From a virus, in the IMG/VR virus record IMGVR_UViG_3300028920_000029, positions 62,001 through 126,000 of that record: a stretch of 64,000 nucleotides of DNA; one strand, 5' to 3'. How positions within the stretch are numbered: the stretch's first letter is position 1; every line of letters starts with the position of its first letter. A model generated the notes under the pieces. It searched no databases. It was not told the origin of the DNA and was given only the letters and a program-made list of their open reading frames with translations. Shown one piece after another: positions 7,212 to 57,158 of this stretch. The position numbers were made by a program, and so were the translations under genes.

Positions 7212-8863
7212 TGGCGGATATAGATAAATTAAGAAGAGAGATATCGTCTATACGATCAGAGTTTAGAGAGATACTTACGATGATGAAGAGTGGTCAGGTT
7301 AGCGACCAGTTAGAACTTATTGGTGGCAAGCTTGACCACTTAGCTCAAAGTACTAAGCGCCTTAATGAGCTATCTAAAGAGACTGGTAAGATTGGTAAGG
7401 AAGCCAGTGACCTAAAAAAAGAGATAGCTAAAGAGGAACTTGATGTACAAAGAGCTATAGAGGAGGCATATAAATCTCAGACTAAAGAATTAGGTAAAAC
7501 AGTAATAGAGGCTAGGCACAGGGCTAGGATAGACAAAGAGCGAGCTGCGTTAGATGCTAAGGTACTTCAGAACAGGGGTAAGTATAGTAAAGAGGAAGTA
7601 GCTGGAGCAGAAGCTGGAACTCTAAAGCGTGGTAAAGAGTTAGGTAGTGCGATTACTGACGCCCTGAAGGATATAGGTTCCGCAGCAGGAGGAGGCACTA
7701 AGGGTGCTGCCTCCCTGTTAGGCGCTGGTTCTGCGGATATGATGTCTAAAGGTATAAGGACATTTAGTGCGGCACTAAAAGGTGTTGGAGGAGCTCTTGG
7801 AGCTACCACTGGAGTATTAGGTATACTAGGGGCTGTGACTTTACACGCCCTTAAAAAGAATGCGGAGTTAATGGCTGACAGGTTAAACGATGGTGCACTG
7901 GCTGTTAGGGCTATGGGTACCAAGGATATGATTAACGTAGGTCAGAATTATCAGAAGTGGGTATACTCGGCAGCACTACAACATGCTGCAGAAGTTGATG
8001 CTATAAAGGCTGTAGTTAATACTTTAGGTTCAAAGTATAAGTTTAATCTAGAAGACTTTATGAAGTCGAATGATGAACTAGGGTTTACCTTTGCAAACGT
8101 TAGGAGAACTGCGGCTGGTTTAGGTATGAAAGAAGAGGATGTCGCAGGTGTTCTTGACACTTTAGTAAATACATACAGGACTAATATATCAAGTGCGAAG
8201 GCACAGCAGCAAGCAGCTAAAGCTCTTAATACCATAACGGCGTATGCTATTAGGGCAGACAAAGAAGGCATAATGTCCAGGGGTCAGTTTACTAAACAGG
8301 TACAGGATGCCATACAGTCTACCAATCAGTACCATGTGAGCGCCAGTGGTGTAGCTAACTTAATGGATTCTTTTGCGAGGATTACAGGACGAAGCAGGGT
8401 AGCTCAGGATCAATTAGCTAACATGACATCTCAGGCTGTATCTGGTATGCGTGGTATGAATGACTCTTTGGCTCTTTTGGCTATGCCTGATAAAGGACTT
8501 GGTGCTTTATGGGAGTTCCCAACCTTAGATCCAGATGAGATGCAGCGAAGAGTTACTGGTATGTTTGGCGGTATGATGAAGATGACAGACGCTATGTCTT
8601 CGTCTGAGAAGGGATTGAAGTTATTGGTTAGCAGTGGTATAACAGGACTTAACAGAGATATATCCAGAAGGTTATTTATGGCAAGTGGAAGAGGAATAGG
8701 TGCTCAAGATGAGCGTACAGCTTTAGAAGAAACCAGAGCAGGTGTAGATGCTATGAAGGATCTGTACGGTATAACTGGTAAGATACTAAAATCTGTTGAA
8801 AGTATGAAGAAGTCTATAGATGTAGGGTTATCTAATGTAGTACAAAAAGTAGGTAATTGGTAA
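7211..8863 (+). CDS. tail tape measure protein
   Basis: 550 residues. Residues 1-120 are charged and strongly coiled-coil. A Gly/Ala-rich region and a hydrophobic stretch near residues 185-215 (GGALGATTGVLGILGAVTL) are typical of tape measures, which cross the membrane during ejection. The C-terminal half is helical. It follows the frameshifted chaperone as expected. It is short for the family and would suit a tail of modest length if the usual length relation holds. Confidence 0.85.
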   Translation: MADIDKLRREISSIRSEFREILTMMKSGQVSDQLELIGGKLDHLAQSTKRLNELSKETGKIGKEASDLKKEIAKEELDVQRAIEEAYKSQTKELGKTVIEARHRARIDKERAALDAKVLQNRGKYSKEEVAGAEAGTLKRGKELGSAITDALKDIGSAAGGGTKGAASLLGAGSADMMSKGIRTFSAALKGVGGALGATTGVLGILGAVTLHALKKNAELMADRLNDGALAVRAMGTKDMINVGQNYQKWVYSAALQHAAEVDAIKAVVNTLGSKYKFNLEDFMKSNDELGFTFANVRRTAAGLGMKEEDVAGVLDTLVNTYRTNISSAKAQQQAAKALNTITAYAIRADKEGIMSRGQFTKQVQDAIQSTNQYHVSASGVANLMDSFARITGRSRVAQDQLANMTSQAVSGMRGMNDSLALLAMPDKGLGALWEFPTLDPDEMQRRVTGMFGGMMKMTDAMSSSEKGLKLLVSSGITGLNRDISRRLFMASGRGIGAQDERTALEETRAGVDAMKDLYGITGKILKSVESMKKSIDVGLSNVVQKVGNW

Positions 8864-35219: not shown

Positions 35220-35444
35220 TTACACCTCCAACAGTGTGACATCATCACAGTTATCTTTTAGGATAATAAACACATCATTCCACGCAGTAATTTTTTGCTT
35301 AACGTGTTTAATAGCGCAAGGGATACATACGTAATAAGGTTTAATTTTCATTACCTTTTCACCCTTGTGCATCTCACGTTTACATCTAGCGCAAGGCATC
35401 GGTGTGCTAGTATTGACTACTGTTACCGAGTAGTCGTCAGTCAT
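35220..35444 (-). CDS. CxxC...CxxCAxK microprotein (paralogue family)
   Basis: 74 residues. CARC, a spacer of about 20 residues with a Lys-rich turn (MHKGEKVMKI), then CIPCAIKHVKQKI. Four other genes here share this pattern: CxxC, strand-like spacer, C-[IV]-x-C-A-[IT]-K, then an amphipathic helix. Probably one zinc ion per chain. Function unknown; the family is named here only by its motif. Confidence 0.65.
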   Translation of the reverse strand: MTDDYSVTVVNTSTPMPCARCKREMHKGEKVMKIKPYYVCIPCAIKHVKQKITAWNDVFIILKDNCDDVTLLEV

Positions 35445-35647
35445 TTCTGTACCTCCTTAGCATAGTCAATCATTTGTTTTAGGTCTTGAATTTCTTCTTC
35501 CATCCTTTTAATACCACAGGGTATACACAAGGTATGTGCAACCATAGTAGTATCATCCAGTATCCTATAGTCACCCAGCTCTATCCTCTTGTGGCACTTA
35601 TCACATGTCTTAACATAGGCGTGGTTTAGCAGTACTGATATACTCAC
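35441..35647 (-). CDS. CxxC...CxxCGxK microprotein (paralogue family)
   Basis: 68 residues with a GTG start behind GGAGGTGCGTCC; the longer ORF would overlap the previous gene by over 60 bp. CDKC at 17 and CIPCGIKRMEEEIQDLK at 45 repeat the zinc/helix pattern of its neighbours. Four-base overlaps on both sides (GTGA and ATGA type) show a coupled cluster. Confidence 0.6.
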   Translation of the reverse strand: MSISVLLNHAYVKTCDKCHKRIELGDYRILDDTTMVAHTLCIPCGIKRMEEEIQDLKQMIDYAKEVQK

Positions 35648-35802
35648 GGACGCACCTCCACTCGTTTCTTTATACCACACTTTAAGTCCAGCACCCACTT
35701 CTTCCTCCCGCATTTATCACACACGTAAACCTTATACCAGTTGTGGTTAACGTAGTCCTCCACGTATCTATCATACTTCCACTTATGTTTACACTTCCCC
35801 AT
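35644..35802 (-). CDS. 52-residue basic zinc-binding microprotein
   Basis: Short ORF behind AAAGGAGAGTGAATAGAT. It has MGKCKHKWKYD at the start and CDKCGRKKW near residue 29. Cys and His residues (C4, H6, C29, C32) could make a zinc site. Very basic, so nucleic-acid binding is plausible. The stop overlaps the next gene's GTG by 4 bp. Confidence 0.55.
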   Translation of the reverse strand: MGKCKHKWKYDRYVEDYVNHNWYKVYVCDKCGRKKWVLDLKCGIKKRVEVRP

Positions 35803-35939: not shown

Positions 35940-36431
35940 CTATTCACTTTCCTTTAAAAGTTGTATTATCTTTTTTACTTGTTTTTTTCTTGTTAACCTG
36001 TATGCCGACCTGTTTGCCGACTCGTATGCCGACCAGCCTGCCGAACTGTATGCCGACCTGTTTGCCGAATAGTCTGCCGACCTATATGCCAAATAACGTG
36101 CCGACTCGCTTGCCAACCAGTCTGCTTCCTCTAATTCTTTTTTAGTCGCTGTTTTAAATATGTAATACTTCTCTATTACATCTATATAATGTTTTATTTC
36201 TTTATTCTTTGTTTTACATTGTCTTGCACACCATATTGCAAATATACGCCTGTCTAAATTACTTCCTAAGTTAGCAAATAGCCAAACCTTATCTTCATTA
36301 CTTAATTTATCTGCTTTATATTCCATACATTCAAGTAATGTCATTTTAGTATTCTCTGTTATTCCTTTTATTTCTGTAGGGTCATAACAGGGGTTTAATT
36401 TTCTAATTTGTTTTATGGTTATCTTTTTCAT
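35940..36431 (-). CDS. Ala/Ser tetrapeptide-repeat protein, Imm-like phage family
   Basis: 163 residues. Residues 40-105 (DKVWLFANLGSNLDRRIFAI, then WCARQCK) resemble the N-terminal part of the putative-immunity-type proteins common in phage and bacterial genomes. Residues 108-145 are seven or more S-A-x-x repeats (SADY, SANR, SAYS, SAGW, SAYE). They are coded by a 12-bp repeat and form an Ala-faced helix. The C-terminus LLKESE recurs in a second, truncated copy at the right edge. Function not established. Confidence 0.6.
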   Translation of the reverse strand: MKKITIKQIRKLNPCYDPTEIKGITENTKMTLLECMEYKADKLSNEDKVWLFANLGSNLDRRIFAIWCARQCKTKNKEIKHYIDVIEKYYIFKTATKKELEEADWLASESARYLAYRSADYSANRSAYSSAGWSAYESANRSAYRLTRKKQVKKIIQLLKESE

Positions 36432-36885: not shown

Positions 36886-37119
36886 TCACCTCCTCAGACT
36901 TTCTTCTACCTTTTCGTCGTACACATACCCTTTGGGAGTCTTGCGTACCACGTTGTAGTTATCCGCACCGAGTCCAGCGTTCAGTCCTTTGAGAAAGGCA
37001 TCACGCTCCTTGCTAGTTTTGTACTTAAACTCAGTCAGCTGACACTCAGCTACAGGCTCTCCCTGTTCCAGCTTAAAGCTCACATCACTTTGTCCTACCA
37101 CTACCTTAAGTGTTCTCAT
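36886..37119 (-). CDS. unknown 77-residue protein
   Basis: ATG behind GGAGGTGGTTGAT; a GTG three codons earlier is too close to the SD. Strands at both ends (TLKVVVGQSDVSFKL, YNVVRKTPKGYVYDEK) flank a helix (SKERDAFLKGLNAGLG), giving a beta-beta-alpha-beta order. No family recognised. Confidence 0.55.
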   Translation of the reverse strand: MRTLKVVVGQSDVSFKLEQGEPVAECQLTEFKYKTSKERDAFLKGLNAGLGADNYNVVRKTPKGYVYDEKVEESLRR

Positions 37120-37132
37120 ATCAACCACCTCC

Positions 37133-37381
37133 CTATCCTTTTAGTAGAACGTCAGAATACCCCAAGGCTTTAAGTAGCGCCTTAAGTTCGTCCATCCTGT
37201 TTAGTATTTCTTTAGTAGCACACGCAACACATCGCACTTCCCTATCCGAGTCAGGTTCCTCAACCCCATCATCATTAAAGAACGAGGTAGTAACATACTC
37301 AACCAATCTAATTTCTCCAGCCCCAATATCTTTATTACAATAATTGCATCGCTCATTAAAAGGTTCTTTAATTACTTCCAT
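37133..37381 (-). CDS. CxxC...CxxCAxK microprotein (paralogue family)
   Basis: 82 residues. CNYC at 12, a 30-residue acidic strand spacer, CVACATKEILNRMDELKALL. Same zinc and helix pattern as the neighbours at 35.2-35.6 and 38.1-38.5 kb but with a longer spacer. Start ATG lies inside the end of the preceding gene behind GGAGGTGGTTGGTG. Confidence 0.6.
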   Translation of the reverse strand: MEVIKEPFNERCNYCNKDIGAGEIRLVEYVTTSFFNDDGVEEPDSDREVRCVACATKEILNRMDELKALLKALGYSDVLLKG

Positions 37382-37769
37382 CACCAACCACCTCCAAAGG
37401 TTTAAGGTTCATTATGTCCCTAAAGCATTTCTCTGAGGAATATAATGTGGTATGGAAAGACCACTCGCCTTTAAACTTTACACGCTTTCCATACGGTTCG
37501 GTAGTGTTTTCTTCTACCCAATCGTTAACAGAATACACACTCATTATCGGTACTATCTCTGTCTTTTCAATAGCCACATAAACGTTACGACTATGTATCG
37601 CAAAGGAAATAAGCGCTATGCCAACTACCAACGTAATTATCCCACCTACTATATGGCGGTCATAACTTTCCGACAGAACAACAACCCCACATAATACGCA
37701 CAGCCCACCGCATAGTATTCCCAGCGTAAGAAATAAAACAGCCAAAAACTGAGCATTTGATAATTCCAT
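37368..37769 (-). CDS. membrane protein with two N-terminal transmembrane helices
   Basis: 133 residues. Hydrophobic helices at about 8-32 (FLAVLFLTLGILCGGLCVLC) and 38-58 (IVGGIITLVVGIALISFAI), followed by a 70-residue soluble strand-rich tail. The short loop between the helices predicts a hairpin with a cytoplasmic tail. No known family. Confidence 0.6.
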   Translation of the reverse strand: MELSNAQFLAVLFLTLGILCGGLCVLCGVVVLSESYDRHIVGGIITLVVGIALISFAIHSRNVYVAIEKTEIVPIMSVYSVNDWVEENTTEPYGKRVKFKGEWSFHTTLYSSEKCFRDIMNLKPLEVVGDGSN

Positions 37770-37770
37770 A

Positions 37771-37998
37771 CTACACCTCCTCCAACACTTTAATTACTTC
37801 CCACTCTACTCCGTCAAGAGTAAACTTCATGCCGACCTTCCACGTTACCGAGCCATACTCCTCAACCCCCACATCTATATTAAACTCTCTTTCCTCCCGC
37901 CTAACATAACCCATAGTAGTATCTGTATAACCATTGGTATCATCCACCACCGTGACTGACCGTTGCTCTGATAAATCCCTTGCTATAAATCTAGCCAT
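37771..37998 (-). CDS. small strand-rich protein behind a promoter
   Basis: 75 residues from the ATG behind GGAGGTGTAGTT. Strands (ARFIARDL, SVTVVDD, EREFNIDVG) and a WKVGMKFTLDGVEWEVIKVL end suggest a PH- or SH3-like barrel. The terminal motif KFTLDGVEWEVIKV resembles small phage DNA-mimic or regulatory barrels only in a general way. A sigma70 promoter lies 50 bp upstream, making this a likely operon start. Confidence 0.6.
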   Translation of the reverse strand: MARFIARDLSEQRSVTVVDDTNGYTDTTMGYVRREEREFNIDVGVEEYGSVTWKVGMKFTLDGVEWEVIKVLEEV

Positions 37999-38047
37999 AA
38001 CTACACCTCCAAAGTAAACTTTTTTCACGACTAAAATCCTTATACAA

Positions 38048-38075
38048 AGTATACTATATATAATCAAAAAGTCAA
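38048..38075 (-). promoter_or_regulatory. sigma70-type promoter
   Basis: TTGACT, 16-bp spacer starting TTTTGA, TATACT on the minus strand, upstream of the 75-residue gene. Same architecture as the promoters near 34.9 and 53.6 kb. Confidence 0.8.
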
Positions 38076-38080
38076 TCCCA

Positions 38081-38293
38081 TCACAAAAGTATATCGATAG
38101 ATGCTTTCTGTAAACTTTTTAAGTCATACTCAGCCTCCTCTTTCCAATGAGATAGTTCCTTAATAGCACAGGGTATACAGTAGATAGAGTTATTAAGGTG
38201 GACATACTTATGGTTAACACCTATCTCACCCCCGCACGAATTACACCATATAGGTATGGAGTTACTAACGTTATTGTATATAGTTATAGACAT
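38081..38293 (-). CDS. CxxC...CxxCAxK microprotein (paralogue family)
   Basis: 70 residues from the ATG behind GGAGGTGTTTGAT. CNSCGGEIG, a 20-residue spacer (HKYVHLNNSIY), CIPCAIKELSHWKEE, ending SIDILL. The end and the CIPCAIK motif match the adjacent gene (AIDIIL), pointing to tandem duplication. Confidence 0.65.
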   Translation of the reverse strand: MSITIYNNVSNSIPIWCNSCGGEIGVNHKYVHLNNSIYCIPCAIKELSHWKEEAEYDLKSLQKASIDILL

Positions 38294-38306
38294 ATCAAAC
38301 ACCTCC

Positions 38307-38546
38307 TTATAGTATGATGTCTATTGCTATAGTCTCCAGTTCATTTAGAGTTAGTTGTGTACGAAGAAGAGAGTAACTAGCGGGGTTCTTTGATTTTAAG
38401 TAGGCTATCCGTTCTCTTGATTGCTTAATAGCACAACGAATACACAGGGTATCTCCTATATTTATGACTACAGGATTACCTTTATGTATCTTTGTTTTAC
38501 ATAGTTTACAAGTTTCTTCCACGTTTGAGTGTGTTAGTATATACAT
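38307..38546 (-). CDS. CxxC...CxxCAxK microprotein (paralogue family)
   Basis: 79 residues. CKLCKTKIHKGNPV, a spacer, CIRCAIKQSRERIAYLK, and a C-terminus AIDIIL like its neighbour. The gene begins next to the non-coding hairpin region, which separates it from the following gene cluster. Likely zinc binding; role unknown. Confidence 0.65.
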   Translation of the reverse strand: MYILTHSNVEETCKLCKTKIHKGNPVVINIGDTLCIRCAIKQSRERIAYLKSKNPASYSLLRTQLTLNELETIAIDIIL

Positions 38547-38590
38547 AATAGTATCTCCTTTCCAAAGGGTATAGGGTATAACACAGGGGT

Positions 38591-38630
38591 ATTAAGGCTT
38601 AAGGAGGTCGTAGACCCGAGTGATTAAGGC
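38591..38630. repeat. 40-bp direct repeat, copy 1
   Basis: Starts ATTAAGGCTTAAGGAGGTCG and is repeated without mismatch 64 bp further on. The core contains an AAGGAGGT that is not followed by a gene on the plus strand. Confidence 0.9.
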
Positions 38631-38654
38631 GTACCCTATGATTTCATAGGGGGA

Positions 38655-38694
38655 ATTAAGGCTTAAGGAGGTCGTAGACCCGAGTGATTAAGGC
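38655..38694. repeat. 40-bp direct repeat, copy 2
   Basis: Identical to copy 1. A perfect 8-bp-stem hairpin (38634-38651) lies between the two copies. Confidence 0.9.
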
Positions 38695-38767
38695 TTAAGT
38701 ATAGCCCCCACCGTACTCAAGGAACCTTAAGGCACCTACTTCTTGCGCCTACCTACTTTTCGGGGGA

Positions 38768-38787
38768 CTCCGATGATATCATCGGAG
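38768..38787. repeat. 20-bp perfect palindrome
   Basis: CTCCGATGATATCATCGGAG. Its right part, with the following GGA, recurs as a 21-bp identical segment at 38833-38853, so the palindrome is duplicated. Confidence 0.9.
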
Positions 38788-38855
38788 GGACTAAGGGACT
38801 CGGGTGCATAGCACCTATTCGGGTGGCTCCGCCCGATGATATCATCGGAGGGACG

Positions 38856-38873
38856 CCGTTGCGTACGCAACGG
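38856..38873. repeat. 18-bp perfect palindrome
   Basis: CCGTTGCGTACGCAACGG, adjacent to the end of the next minus-strand gene. It could act as a strong RNA hairpin or a dimer-binding DNA site. Confidence 0.85.
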
Positions 38874-38876
38874 GGA

Positions 38877-39233
38877 CTAGATAAAGTATACTATATCATC
38901 TTCTAACCTTAAAGCATCAATCCTTAAAGCATCAATCCTTAAATATTCTATACCCAGTTCCGCCCGATACTTCAATGTTTCGCATCGTTGGGTTACTATA
39001 CACCTTACATAATTGGCCAGCATCTTTACTAAGGCCCTCTTGGTAGTTAGGTATTTAACGCTACTCAGGTCCAGCTCCCAACACCAGTAGGGGAAGGGTC
39101 GTGAGCCCCAGTCCCTAGCAAACTTAGGGTCCTTCTCAATATTAAAGGGACCGTCTACTCTACTCTGTAGGGTCTTAGGCAGGTCTTTATACTTACCATT
39201 TAGGTGCGTACGTGTATTATATACTCTCTTCAT
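38877..39233 (-). CDS. small-protein family with GP...YWxWE...LTT-helix motif
   Basis: 118 residues. SRVDGPFNI, then YWCWELDLSSVKYLTTKRAL and MLANYVRCIV. This parallels the next gene (GRLSGPW, YYWEFNYKDLHTTTVIAILR), so the two are paralogues. The C-terminus has a duplicated IDALR pentapeptide coded by an exact 15-bp tandem repeat, then DDIVYFI. SD AGGAGGTAACTAAAA. Function unknown. Confidence 0.55.
   Translation of the reverse strand: MKRVYNTRTHLNGKYKDLPKTLQSRVDGPFNIEKDPKFARDWGSRPFPYWCWELDLSSVKYLTTKRALVKMLANYVRCIVTQRCETLKYRAELGIEYLRIDALRIDALRLEDDIVYFI
38907..38936 (-). repeat. 15-bp exact tandem repeat inside a gene
   Basis: CCTTAAAGCATCAAT occurs twice head to tail (plus-strand orientation), adding one IDALR pentapeptide to the encoded protein. 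A third, degenerate copy follows. Confidence 0.85.
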
Positions 39234-39246
39234 TTTTAGTTACCTC

Positions 39247-39573
39247 CTACCCTATGTAAAGTGTATCATCTTTAAGTAACGTGTCAATAATATCCTCAGG
39301 GTTATGGTCGTATAAACTATCCAGCCTGTTGTTTTTTAAAGTACCAAACATTATGTCGGGGTTGGTTTGATAAAGCTTCCTAAGTATAGCTATGACTGTA
39401 GTAGTGTGCAGGTCCTTATAGTTAAATTCCCAGTAGTACAGGCTGTATGGAGCCTTATATACAGCTTCCCATGGGCCGCTTAGTCTGCCTTTAAAGTCTA
39501 TCTTCTTGAGGCTATCCTGTATATCTTTAGCTCTTACCTCTTTAACAGTAATGTTAAAAGGTACTCTCTTCAT
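39247..39573 (-). CDS. small-protein family with GP...YYWE...TTT-helix motif
   Basis: 108 residues. FKGRLSGPWEAV, then YYWEFNYKDL (strand), HTTTVIAILRKLYQ (helix with T-T-T cap), strand (DIMFGTL), helix (PEDIIDTLLKDD) and end strand TLYIG. This is the clearest member of the 38.9-41.0 kb family and also fits the wider beta-alpha-beta-beta-alpha-beta pattern. Unknown function. Confidence 0.55.
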   Translation of the reverse strand: MKRVPFNITVKEVRAKDIQDSLKKIDFKGRLSGPWEAVYKAPYSLYYWEFNYKDLHTTTVIAILRKLYQTNPDIMFGTLKNNRLDSLYDHNPEDIIDTLLKDDTLYIG

Positions 39574-39584
39574 GAGGTCCTCCT

Positions 39585-40037
39585 TTAAAAGTAAGGGAAT
39601 AAGTAGACTGGACCGTTGTTATCCAAGACCCTTACTACCTCTTCTTCGTTTGGATACATATACATGGTGGAGCCGTATACCTCGGGTCCTAGCGGCCTGA
39701 TTATCTCATAACTTGTGGCTACACACGTGGTGACTTCCTCGGGTGATTCTCTGAAGGGCCGTATGTCATATATGTACTTACAAAGCTTCCTAAGTATAGC
39801 CAGCTTGGTATAAGTAGTTAAGCTAGGCCCCTTGAACCTAAAGGAAGCACCCTTGAGGCCTGCGTAAACTAGTTTTTTGCGGTGGCGCAGCTCCACCTTG
39901 TCCATGTCAAAGTACTTTACGTCTGCGTACTCGCTATCCTTAAAACACTCCTCTAAATACTCGCCTATTACTATGTACGCCCTGCTCATTTTTTTATGCT
40001 TTTTCAGTAGGTATGGGTCCAGCTCTGGTAGTTTCAT
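39585..40037 (-). CDS. small-protein family with SLTTYTKLAILRKL motif
   Basis: 150 residues. Strand (GASFRFKGPSL), helix TTYTKLAILRKLCKYIYD, strands (TCVATSYEI, STMYMYP), helix (NEEEVVRVLDNN) and a strand PVYLFPYF, the same order as its neighbours. The start uses the leader GGGGAGGTATACTTAGG, found identically at 40251-40272. Function unknown. Confidence 0.55.
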   Translation of the reverse strand: MKLPELDPYLLKKHKKMSRAYIVIGEYLEECFKDSEYADVKYFDMDKVELRHRKKLVYAGLKGASFRFKGPSLTTYTKLAILRKLCKYIYDIRPFRESPEEVTTCVATSYEIIRPLGPEVYGSTMYMYPNEEEVVRVLDNNGPVYLFPYF

Positions 40038-40054
40038 CCTAAGTATACCTCCCC
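40033..40054 (-). repeat. 22-bp leader repeat, copy 1
   Basis: Contains the SD and ATG of the 150-residue gene. It also encodes the C-terminal GEVYLG and stop of the gene before it. Identical to 40251-40272. Confidence 0.85.
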
Positions 40055-40420
40055 ATCAGTATCCGACACATACCAGTAGGATTTTACGTGTTTATCAGCA
40101 TAGGCTTCCGCTTCTTTTACTGAGTTAAAGAGTAGCTTCTTCCCCCCTCTTTTCAGCACATCCCCACCTGTGATGCTGTCGGTGTTCTCATCTTCCGTGT
40201 ACCAGTTAATAACATACTGCTTTTTAACGGCTTTCTTCCTCGTCTTCGTCTTCATCCTAAGTATACCTCCCCTTCCTTTAGTAGACACAGGGTATGGCAT
40301 GCGTATGTTAGTGCTACTCCGCGCAAAATACGGCCCATGGATCCTACCCTTAAACATCGTTGGCGGGGTGAATTCTTCACGCATTCTTTCTTCTATGTCT
40401 AAGGGCTTAAAGTCACTCAT
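40034..40420 (-). CDS. possible fused small protein; internal start at 40255
   Basis: 128 residues as one ORF. The N-terminus (MFKGRIHGPYFARSS) resembles the FKGRxxGP family. The ORF then runs through an internal copy of the 22-bp leader (40251-40272), which carries a perfect SD and ATG. An independent 73-residue protein from 40255 (MKTKTRKKAVKKQY onward, ending DTDGEVYLG) is therefore equally likely. The arrangement suggests recombination between duplicated leaders that truncated a family member. Confidence 0.5.
   Translation of the reverse strand: MSDFKPLDIEERMREEFTPPTMFKGRIHGPYFARSSTNIRMPYPVSTKGRGGILRMKTKTRKKAVKKQYVINWYTEDENTDSITGGDVLKRGGKKLLFNSVKEAEAYADKHVKSYWYVSDTDGEVYLG
40251..40272 (-). 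repeat. 22-bp leader repeat, copy 2
   Basis: Same sequence as 40033-40054, here inside an ORF and positioned as SD plus ATG for the 73-residue downstream part. In another frame it would encode the same GEVYLG-stop end. Confidence 0.85.
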
Positions 40421-41015
40421 CTTTCTTCTTCTTTTCTTGCAGGTGCAGCAGGTAGTTTACATAATCATGGACGTTTACTGGCCTATGTATCCTCTCCAGC
40501 TTGTGCATCGCGGTATTAGCTAGGTGTTCCTTAAAGAAAGGCTGCTTTAATAGCTCTACCTGGAACTTAGTTAGGTGCTTTAACGTGCGGTCGATGGCCT
40601 TTATTAACCACGCGTCCAGCCTGTTTCCCTTTAAAGTGATTATCTTTGCTGTACCCGCATACTGTATTAGATACTCCTTAGGAGTAGAGTAGTATAAGCT
40701 CCTTATTTTACGGTAGGTCATCCAGCATAGCTTGCCTCCTGGAGAGTAAAAGGGTATCGCTATAGATGTGTTGCCAGTACCCATGCCCTCATCTTTTAGG
40801 GAGCTCCACCTTAACATCTTTTTTACCACCGCTAGCTTGAACGTATCAGTAGTCATCTTGGACCACTTAGTCTCTATAAACACCGCCATGTTTGCCGCAG
40901 GCCGATCTCTATACGAAGACGTGTCGTCGTCGGTCCACCAATAACTAAACAACTTCTGCAGTTTCTTAAGCTGATCCTCTTCCTTTTTGGTTAGTACCGT
41001 GGATTGTTTACTCAT
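40413..41015 (-). CDS. 200-residue protein with TTDTFKLAVVKKM motif
   Basis: Acidic/Trp-rich N-terminus (FSYWWTDDDTSSYRDRP), strand (MAVFIETKW), helix starting MTTDTFKLAVVKKMLRW, strand (SIAIPFY), then a strand region and a long helical C-terminus. The motif places it with the three upstream family members. SD GGAGGTAACTAGAC is identical to that of the 53-residue gene at 41.7 kb. Ends 8 bp inside the next gene. Confidence 0.55.
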   Translation of the reverse strand: MSKQSTVLTKKEEDQLKKLQKLFSYWWTDDDTSSYRDRPAANMAVFIETKWSKMTTDTFKLAVVKKMLRWSSLKDEGMGTGNTSIAIPFYSPGGKLCWMTYRKIRSLYYSTPKEYLIQYAGTAKIITLKGNRLDAWLIKAIDRTLKHLTKFQVELLKQPFFKEHLANTAMHKLERIHRPVNVHDYVNYLLHLQEKKKKDE

Positions 41016-42104: not shown

Positions 42105-42788
42105 CTAGTGCTGCTTAAAGTATACGTTATCGTCTTTGTCGTTCCAGCATGTGAGACAGAGTCTCCCACAATAGTGGTGCTCGCCTCCCACATCCTTGCT
42201 TAACGGGCACATCTTAAAGTCCTTGTCCATGTTACCAGGGACCTTAGGTATCTTCACCGCTGCAGGAGGAGGCACTGGCTGCTCTACCTTAGTCATAACG
42301 TATGTCTTAGGAGTGTTAGGGATCTTTGGCACGTCCAGGTTGGACTCGTCGTAGCTCTGTTTTAGGTTAAGGTTCTTGGGCTTGGCGCTGAAGTCAAACA
42401 TGTGACTCTTAGTAAACGCCAGGAACGTAACTCCAGGGTACTCGGACATGAACTTGAGCGCGGCGTCTACGTAATCCTGCCAAAAGAAGTCCCCGCTTTC
42501 GTGGAACCTCACCTTGTCTACTCCATAGTCCTTGATCAGCGCGTCCATCTCTACGCGCAGCTCTTTCCAGAAGGACTCTGGGTTAGACGTTAGCTCGTTG
42601 TAAATCCTCTGTCTCTTCTCTCTTGCTGACCTGTAGCATATCTCTGCTTTATTTGCGTAGCACAGCTTTGAGCACAGTGGGCTCCTGCCTGGGCACGTAG
42701 TAATAGTAGGCAGGTTAAGGATAGGGATCTTCTTGTCTAACTTCCTGTTGAATCCAAAGCTAAACAACTTCGGTTTGATCTTAGCCAT
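42105..42788 (-). CDS. GP88-like cysteine-rich phage protein
   Basis: 227 residues. CPGRSPLCSKLCYANK followed by ICYRSAREKRQRIYNE, VRFHESGDFFWQDYVDAA and VTFLAFTKS reproduces the pattern of the phage gene-product-88 family. A second cluster at the C-terminus (CPLSK...HYCGRLCLTCW) is ferredoxin- or radical-SAM-accessory-like. The barrel-like HESGDF strand and Cys clusters suggest an iron-sulfur protein; biochemical role not established. A Pro-rich linker lies at about 160-190. Confidence 0.7.
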   Translation of the reverse strand: MAKIKPKLFSFGFNRKLDKKIPILNLPTITTCPGRSPLCSKLCYANKAEICYRSAREKRQRIYNELTSNPESFWKELRVEMDALIKDYGVDKVRFHESGDFFWQDYVDAALKFMSEYPGVTFLAFTKSHMFDFSAKPKNLNLKQSYDESNLDVPKIPNTPKTYVMTKVEQPVPPPAAVKIPKVPGNMDKDFKMCPLSKDVGGEHHYCGRLCLTCWNDKDDNVYFKQH

Positions 42789-52684: not shown

Positions 52685-52944
52685 AATAGCACCTCCATTT
52701 TTTGCAGAAAAAGTTTGACAACTTCTTTGGTAGGCTTATCAAAGATATAGGTGTCTCTGTTTTCATCCATTAACTTATCCGCATACTCTCCCAAACGCCT
52801 ACCGTTACACGTAACCTCTTCCCACACCAAAATGTCGTGGTTAGCATAACGTAACACCAGTTCCAGCCACGTATGGAATAACATATGTTTCTGTTTTTCC
52901 ACTAATTTCCGTCGTAGCCTTTGTTTATACTGGCGGTTATTCAT
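52681..52944 (-). CDS. unknown 87-residue basic helical protein
   Basis: A basic start (NNRQYKQRLRRKLVEKQK) and aromatic helix (MLFHTWLELVLRY), then an acidic region and a C-terminal helix (EVVKLFLQKMEV). It overlaps both neighbours by 4-8 bp. The SD lies within the upstream gene (CTGGAGATG). Not recognised. Confidence 0.5.
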   Translation of the reverse strand: MNNRQYKQRLRRKLVEKQKHMLFHTWLELVLRYANHDILVWEEVTCNGRRLGEYADKLMDENRDTYIFDKPTKEVVKLFLQKMEVLF

Positions 52945-56422: not shown

Positions 56423-56452
56423 AGTACTCACCTCCTATTAGTTTATAAGTCC

Positions 56453-56472
56453 GAGGGAGCCTAAGCTCCCTC
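56453..56472 (-). promoter_or_regulatory. leader hairpin between micro-ORF and membrane gene
   Basis: GAGGGAGC-TTAG-GCTCCCTC, a perfect 8-bp stem and 4-nt loop, beginning 4 bp after the micro-ORF stop. No U-run follows. It could be an attenuator or translational barrier controlled by ribosomes on the micro-ORF. Confidence 0.55.
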
Positions 56473-56475
56473 ATA

Positions 56476-56499
56476 CTACCAAAGGCTAGACATCTTCAT
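56476..56499 (-). CDS. 7-residue leader micro-ORF
   Basis: ATG behind the perfect site AAGGAGGTGTTACT encodes MKMSSLW and stops at TAG just before the hairpin. The strong SD in front of such a short ORF, right after a long non-coding region, suggests a leader peptide. Confidence 0.45.
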   Translation of the reverse strand: MKMSSLW

Positions 56500-57158
56500 A
56501 GTAACACCTCCTTAGTATTATTTTATTTATTATTTATTTTATTGTCGAGCACAAGAATATTGTAGAGTACTACAGTACTAGGGGGTATACCTATGCTCGG
56601 TGCCCCCAGGGTGAAAATCACCTTCTCTCCCGATACCTAGGCTTCTAGGCTTCTAGGCTTCTAGGCTTCTAGACTTCTAATACTCCCGATACCTAGGCTT
56701 CTAGGCTTCTAGGCTTCTAGACTTCTAATACTCCCGATACCTAGGCTTCTAGGCTTCTAGGCTTCTAGACTTCTAGACTTCTAATACTCCCGATACCTAG
56801 GCTTCTAGTACTCTCGATACCTAGGCTTCTAGGCTTCTAGTACTCTCGATACCTAGGCTTCTAGGCTTCTAGTACTCTCGATACCTAGGCTTCTAGGCTT
56901 CTAGTACTCCCGATACCTAGGCTTCTAGGCTTCTAGTACTCCCGATACCTAGGCTTCTAGACTACCCGTTGGATACCCAACGCGCGGACTTAAGGTACCC
57001 CTCTTTCCCTATGGATATATCTTGGGTCCCCAGAAGGACTAAAAAATTTCCCTGGTATTTTTTGGGGATTGCTTGACAATATAAGGTATAATTTGGATAA
57101 ATAAGGCTATCTGGGATGTTACCTCTATTTAGGAGGCGATCGTTGATTCTAGGGGGTG
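56500..57158. other. 655-bp non-coding region with octamer array
   Basis: No gene-size ORF. From left to right it holds an A/T-rich segment that could be a minus-strand promoter or UP region (56520-56545) and a GGTGA/TCACC hairpin near 56610. The octamer array (56631-56966) follows. Then come a CGTTGG/CCAACG hairpin (56968-56983), an AAAAAA/TTTTTT stem (57038-57062) and a TTGACA/TATAAT pair with an 8-bp gap (57073-57092, plus strand). Confidence 0.6.
56631..56966. repeat. tandem array of 42 octamers in nine higher-order units
   Basis: The whole 336 bp is in register with a period of eight. Each unit opens with CGATACCT, continues with one to four AGGCTTCT (sometimes AGACTTCT) and closes with AATACTCC, AGTACTCT or AGTACTCC. 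Unit lengths are 56, 48, 56, 24, 32, 32, 32, 32 and 24 bp. CCTAGG palindromes recur at each unit start. No coding potential; no CRISPR-like unique spacers. Confidence 0.95.

Follow-up and report, generated by a model that had tools for sequence, protein, structure and literature searches.

A 330-bp spacer between two small genes of a large tailed phage was found to contain a ladder of hairpins and perfect palindromes laid out at a regular step of about 32 bp. By analogy with other hairpin-bearing spacers of the same phage group, we tentatively interpret this spacer as a part of a polycistronic early mRNA that folds between two cistrons and may protect the message or direct its processing. The spacer is well defined, and among hairpin-rich intercistronic spacers it is unusually regular; it comes from a lineage of large phages that had not been sampled before. 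Alone it changes no general picture, and its regular 32-bp step provides a simple means of telling an RNA element from a DNA site.

Genomic setting and anatomy of the spacer

The window, meaning the whole 64,000-nt stretch of DNA that was analyzed, comprises bases 62001-126000 of a 173,362-bp IMG/VR virus record (G000); positions are those of the window unless given as genome positions. The record is classed as linear, yet its ends (1-141 and 173222-173362) overlap over 141 bp with one mismatch, and the genome is thus circular or circularly permuted and essentially complete. It encodes a terminase, portal, major head protein, baseplate, family-A DNA polymerase, DnaB-like helicase, SbcCD-like proteins, an anaerobic ribonucleotide reductase and GroEL. 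Genes lie on the + strand from about 1.15 to 86.7 kb and on the - strand in the remainder, GC skew tracks this strand split, and 5.9% of the DNA is outside ORFs. The spacer sits in the - strand arm, amid small genes without family matches. By eye, the small proteins encoded in 38877-40420 have a common C-terminal ending (DDIVYFI, DDTLYIG, DGEVYLG) and an inner G-P motif, which suggests that they are a diverged tandem family. A 12-bp tandem repeat, ACCTGTATGCCG, was also seen in this part of the window, at 35996-36105 inside the ORF 35940-36431.

The genes that flank the spacer are on the same strand, with promoter-like sites before the gene pair and after it (Table 1) and no terminator between them: no terminator-like site, defined as a G+C-rich stem followed by a T run, occurs in the spacer, and the sole such site within 37000-41000 is at 37447-37464, outside it. 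There is no promoter in the spacer, and a promoter-like site at a suitable place is absent from either strand. The presence of ATATAGTATACTTT both at 38896 and at the real-looking promoter at 38075 raised the possibility of a promoter at the head of the ladder, with TATACT at 38890-38885 (-); this promoter was rejected, as its -35 element is poor and it is Val-Tyr coding DNA near a C-terminus, a motif also present in neighboring proteins. The spacer has a G+C content of 0.51, compared to about 0.40 for the genome. It contains no ORF of at least 60 aa and stop codons are frequent in all six frames, so coding potential was rejected; tRNA-like content was likewise rejected, and no Rfam family matched the spacer at its gathering score.

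Table 1. Positions of the spacer, its hairpins and repeats, and the adjoining genes and promoter-like sites.
Feature	Position	Strand	Remarks
Non-coding intercistronic spacer with hairpin ladder	38547..38876	-	- strand transcription expected from gene orientation
32-bp-period array	38591..38699	.	ATTAAGGC heads four units
Small hairpin CCTTT-CC-AAAGG	38557..38568	.	Overlaps Shine-Dalgarno of downstream gene
Small hairpin GGTC-GTA-GACC, unit 1	38606..38616	.	Center 38611
Hairpin CCCTATGA-TT-TCATAGGG, unit 2	38634..38651	.	Center 38642.5
Small hairpin GGTC-GTA-GACC, unit 3	38670..38680	.	Center 38675
GGGAC, five copies	38764..38877 (38764, 38787, 38795, 38850, 38873)	+	Between or beside palindromes; GUCCC in expected transcript
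20-bp perfect palindrome CTCCGATGATATCATCGGAG	38768..38787	.	Center 38777.5
Hairpin GGTGC-ATA-GCACC	38803..38815	.	Center 38809
16-bp perfect palindrome CCGATGATATCATCGG	38833..38848	.	Center 38840.5; in second copy of 22-bp segment 38770-38791
18-bp perfect palindrome CCGTTGCGTACGCAACGG	38856..38873	.	Center 38864.5; end 3 nt from stop codon of upstream gene
Upstream gene, 118 aa	38877..39233	-	Without family match
Downstream gene, 79 aa, small CxxC protein	38307..38546	-	Paralogue of 35441-35713 and 35220-35444
Second downstream gene, 73 aa, small CxxC protein	38081..38302	-	
Promoter-like TTGACA-16-TACACT	39260..39287	-	Ahead of 118-aa gene
Promoter-like TTGACT-16-TATACT	38048..38075	-	Downstream of both small CxxC genes

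The hairpins fall into two groups. In the first, the octamer ATTAAGGC recurs at 38591, 38623, 38655 and 38687, which are exact 32-bp steps. Units 1 and 3 of this array are identical across all 32 bp, unit 2 has the common head and a different hairpin insert, and unit 4 keeps the head with the hairpin absent at the threshold used. A 40-bp exact direct repeat (38591-38630 and 38655-38694), which widens to 48 bp at 96% identity (38586-38633 and 38650-38697), flanks the unit-2 hairpin, and the hairpin centers in this group are 31.5 and 32.5 bp apart. Past a gap, the three dyad centers of the second group (38777.5, 38809 and 38840.5) are spaced at exactly 31.5 bp. The 20-bp and 16-bp palindrome cores of this group lie within a 22-bp segment that occurs twice in identical form (38770-38791 and 38833-38854). 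Both palindromes have the pattern CCnATGATwTCATnGG in common with the unit-2 hairpin, with one pair altered on both sides; as a single two-sided change among duplicates within one genome, this is weak evidence and could come from template switching.

A preliminary description of this DNA had reported a gene-free segment with raised G+C between same-strand gene clusters, containing a 40-bp exact direct repeat around a hairpin, a duplicated palindrome, an 18-bp palindrome and further small hairpins, all of which were found again here. The 20- and 16-bp cores it gave for the duplicated palindrome also stand, while the identical segment, put at 21 bp, is 22 bp long. What it had missed was the order in the spacer, that is, the exact 32-bp period, the 31.5-bp dyad spacing and the fivefold GGGAC.

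These features are far from what shuffled sequence yields. When the spacer was shuffled 5000 times with dinucleotides preserved, no shuffle contained three perfect palindromes of at least 16 bp (33 contained at least one), and the longest direct repeat among the shuffles was 15 bp. RNA folding of the spacer gave z scores of -4.1 for the - strand and -4.5 for the + strand, and none of 100 shuffles was as stable. Because palindromes fold equally well on both strands, the fold gives no pointer to a - strand RNA, and the contribution of G-U pairs to the choice of strand, judged by eye, is too slight to use. Genome-wide, only genome 0.8-1.15 kb is denser in hairpins than the spacer, and the five GGGAC copies, which fall within about 115 bp of the + strand, are the densest cluster of that motif. 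No further copy of the spacer repeats was found elsewhere in the genome.

Hairpin-bearing spacers in the phage and its relatives

Searches of IMG/VR found no relative of either protein flanking the spacer, nor of the DNA polymerase of this phage. Nine relatives of the capsid protein were found, the best at 74% identity, and one of them is encoded on a syntenic record of 150 kb (G005), which is the closest long relative and has a capsid protein 70% identical to that of the phage. The gene order of G005 matches across most of the genome, but not at the spacer region. G005 was also the only relative in the ATPase alignment, and the alignment of the protein encoded at 42105-42788 contained G005 and otherwise only distant relatives. 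Searches with the spacer DNA gave no match in the records of eight relatives, in phages or in plasmids, and exact spacer probes found no copy in IMG/VR or in GTDB genomes.

Although the spacer has no match in these records, hairpins outside genes are common in the group. In the phage itself, 16 of the 28 strong hairpins lie in the small fraction of DNA outside ORFs, four of them in the spacer, and several closely follow stop codons, including those at 8017-8042 (stop at 8007) and 52806 (capsid gene stop at 52796). A row of hairpins stands after the major capsid gene, ahead of the next gene, in several relatives (L005:12797-13016, L013:5187-5366, L015:5062-5245 and L025:2882-3055). Automatic alignment was poor in the variable stems of these capsid-gene spacers, and stem arms were therefore set by hand for pair counts between two of the records: one hairpin kept 11 of its 11 pairs, five of which had changed on both sides, and a second hairpin in the same two records kept seven of seven, with two changed on both sides. 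The phage's own capsid-gene spacer has a hairpin row at the same place, unrelated in appearance (z = -3.9). Comparison with the relatives shows that selection acts on pairing in spacers of this kind at a second locus, the one after the capsid gene. Structured spacers are therefore a recurrent trait of the lineage, and this raises, without proving, the RNA reading of the spacer at 38547-38876.

Structured leaders of another kind were found in G005, where ten near-identical hairpins (GCCTATG, 12-15 nt, CATAGGC) stand directly ahead of the Shine-Dalgarno sequences of small genes in the same arm (L020:16568-19916 and L021:767-1737 (-)). Weaker members exist, in one of which both partners of a pair have changed, and CCCC/GGGG in the leader permits an alternative hairpin. 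The spacer includes a CCTATG...CATAGG hairpin that was tried as a homologue of this ten-copy leader; a covariance model of the leader (R1) gave it no support, scoring the spacer hairpin at 3.5 bits, and the best hit of the model in the phage genome (E = 0.72) was not at the spacer.

Two other non-coding features of the phage were observed. In the gap at window positions 56432-57158 the 8-bp unit CTAGGCTT forms an array that shows higher-order periods of 32, 56, 64 and 96 bp and is broken by inserts resembling CCCGATAC; near the right end of the gap is a good sigma-70-like promoter sequence, CTTGACAATATAAGGTATAATTT, on the + strand and pointing against the local genes. An array of 26 tRNA genes outside the window encloses the gene of a full-length class A RNase P RNA at L007:5308-5604 (-), equivalent to genome 129308-129604 (RF00010, 112.1 bits where the gathering score is 100). 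A literature search returned no report of a phage carrying tRNAs plus its own RNase P RNA, and a phage that brings both would be worth separate study.

Candidate roles of the ladder

The spacer lies between co-directional genes, is non-coding and folds more stably than its shuffles, as would be expected of a structured mRNA spacer. From the orientation of the genes we infer that transcription would start ahead of the 118-aa gene (promoter-like site at 39287) and continue through the ladder into the two CxxC genes. In the cell, the spacer RNA would then fold as a row of hairpins, the first of them a few nucleotides past the upstream stop codon, and these hairpins may protect the upstream message against 3'-to-5' decay or direct its processing. 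Either effect could uncouple the amounts of upstream and downstream message. The ladder itself may have lengthened as a unit of about 32 bp was duplicated locally. Of the three readings offered in the preliminary description, namely a multi-hairpin RNA, a second origin and a recombination site, the multi-hairpin RNA is the best supported, by an analogy that draws on the same-strand genes, the lack of a terminator and the hairpin spacers of the group with their compensatory changes at another locus. The three large dyads that have no loop of their own count against an RNA, and a DNA site would fit the 31.5-bp spacing, or three helical turns, no less well.

The main rival, possible though doubtful in our judgment, is a site acting as DNA, a rank that it owes to the three-turn spacing and the loopless large dyads. 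In this reading, dyads arrayed along a single helical face would let a dimeric phage or host protein repress, loop or organize the DNA. The regularity of the ladder speaks for it: centers in the second group are separated by three turns of 10.5 bp, those in the first by nearly the same distance, the octamer keeps its exact step, and two 16-bp dyads are identical with a third related to them through the CCnATGATwTCATnGG pattern. The dyads within each group, however, are not all alike in sequence (GGTGCATAGCACC is different, as is the 18-bp palindrome), there is no promoter at the place to control, and no binding protein is known. A helically phased site, in which unlike dyads at three-turn (31.5-32 bp) steps would build a nucleoprotein ladder along one face of the early-arm DNA for a secondary origin, DNA anchoring or partition, would be an array of a kind not described before and seems unlikely. 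Rather doubtful, too, is a neutral or nearly neutral origin, by which a 32-bp unit was duplicated in tandem in a tolerant spacer and its palindromes were perfected by template switching. The repeats are local, absent from the rest of the genome and without a copy in any relative searched, and the duplication appears recent because units 1 and 3 are identical, all of which would fit such a history; it accords poorly with tight packing of the genes in this genome, with the presence of several unlike palindromes instead of one duplicated unit, and with a regular spacing that is kept by unlike hairpins.

A second replication origin of iterons and dyads would account for the non-coding DNA and for four fixed-period octamers accompanied by dyads, which resemble iteron origins. 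We consider it quite unlikely because the spacer is G+C-rich, shows no skew change and is outclassed as a candidate by genome 779-1151. No skew extremum, divergent gene pair or A+T-rich unwinding stretch was found at the spacer; GC skew does not change sign there, and at 1-kb resolution its extremes fall at about 86 kb and 172 kb of the genome. The region at genome 779-1151 (L003:779-1151), outside the window, separates divergent genes and has a palindrome ladder, with stems of 10-16 bp, that is stronger than any other in the genome. It lies close to the minimum of cumulative GC skew, is bordered by replication genes that encode the polymerase, single-strand-binding protein and helicase, and is a candidate for the main origin. 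The row of hairpins with a repeated GGGAC/GUCCC linker motif might also belong to a small RNA that is transcribed independently, from a promoter of its own, and serves for instance as a protein sponge, but this is very unlikely given the lack of a suitably placed promoter-like site on either strand, where TATACT at 38890-38885 (-) has only a poor -35, and of an Rfam match. The direct and inverted repeats would suit a site-specific recombination site or a small mobile palindromic element, and this last reading we regard as highly improbable: neither the phage genome nor, for exact probes, IMG/VR or GTDB genomes hold another copy, no plasmid or phage matched, and family searches recognized no recombinase or transposase among the neighboring genes.

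Comparison with known systems

A close counterpart to the spacer, read as an intercistronic RNA element, is the capsid-gene hairpin ladder of the same phage group, where a row of hairpins likewise begins just past a stop codon and the genes on either side share a strand. The capsid-gene ladder has compensatory changes across genomes, whereas the spacer at 38547-38876 has its 32-bp duplication period and no relatives that could be found. Iteron origins with dyads, such as lambda ori, have four short direct repeats at a fixed step. The spacer is like them in having four short direct repeats at a fixed step along with dyads, and differs in its 32-bp step with unlike inserts, its high G+C, the lack of an adjacent gene recognized as an initiator and the absence of a skew change.

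In T4, gene leaders show that a hairpin ahead of the start codon can control a phage message, acting as single defined operators (PMC3014915), whereas the spacer has many hairpins and no known ligand. REP and BIME units are short, palindromic, clustered and mostly downstream of coding regions, where they plausibly act as RNA in message stabilization; REPs are high-copy elements spread over many loci, and a GTAG or CGTC tag is present on most of them (PMC3733652). The units of the spacer are similarly palindromic and extragenic, lying between co-directional genes and downstream of a coding region. They differ in being confined to one locus and in having no consistent tag, since CGTC stands beside one of the identical palindromes and AGTC beside the other, with GTAG occurring only within a small hairpin. 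Because it lacks both dispersed copies and a consistent tag, the spacer is not a member of the REP/BIME class, and we file it among the structured intercistronic spacers, as one with an unusually regular period.
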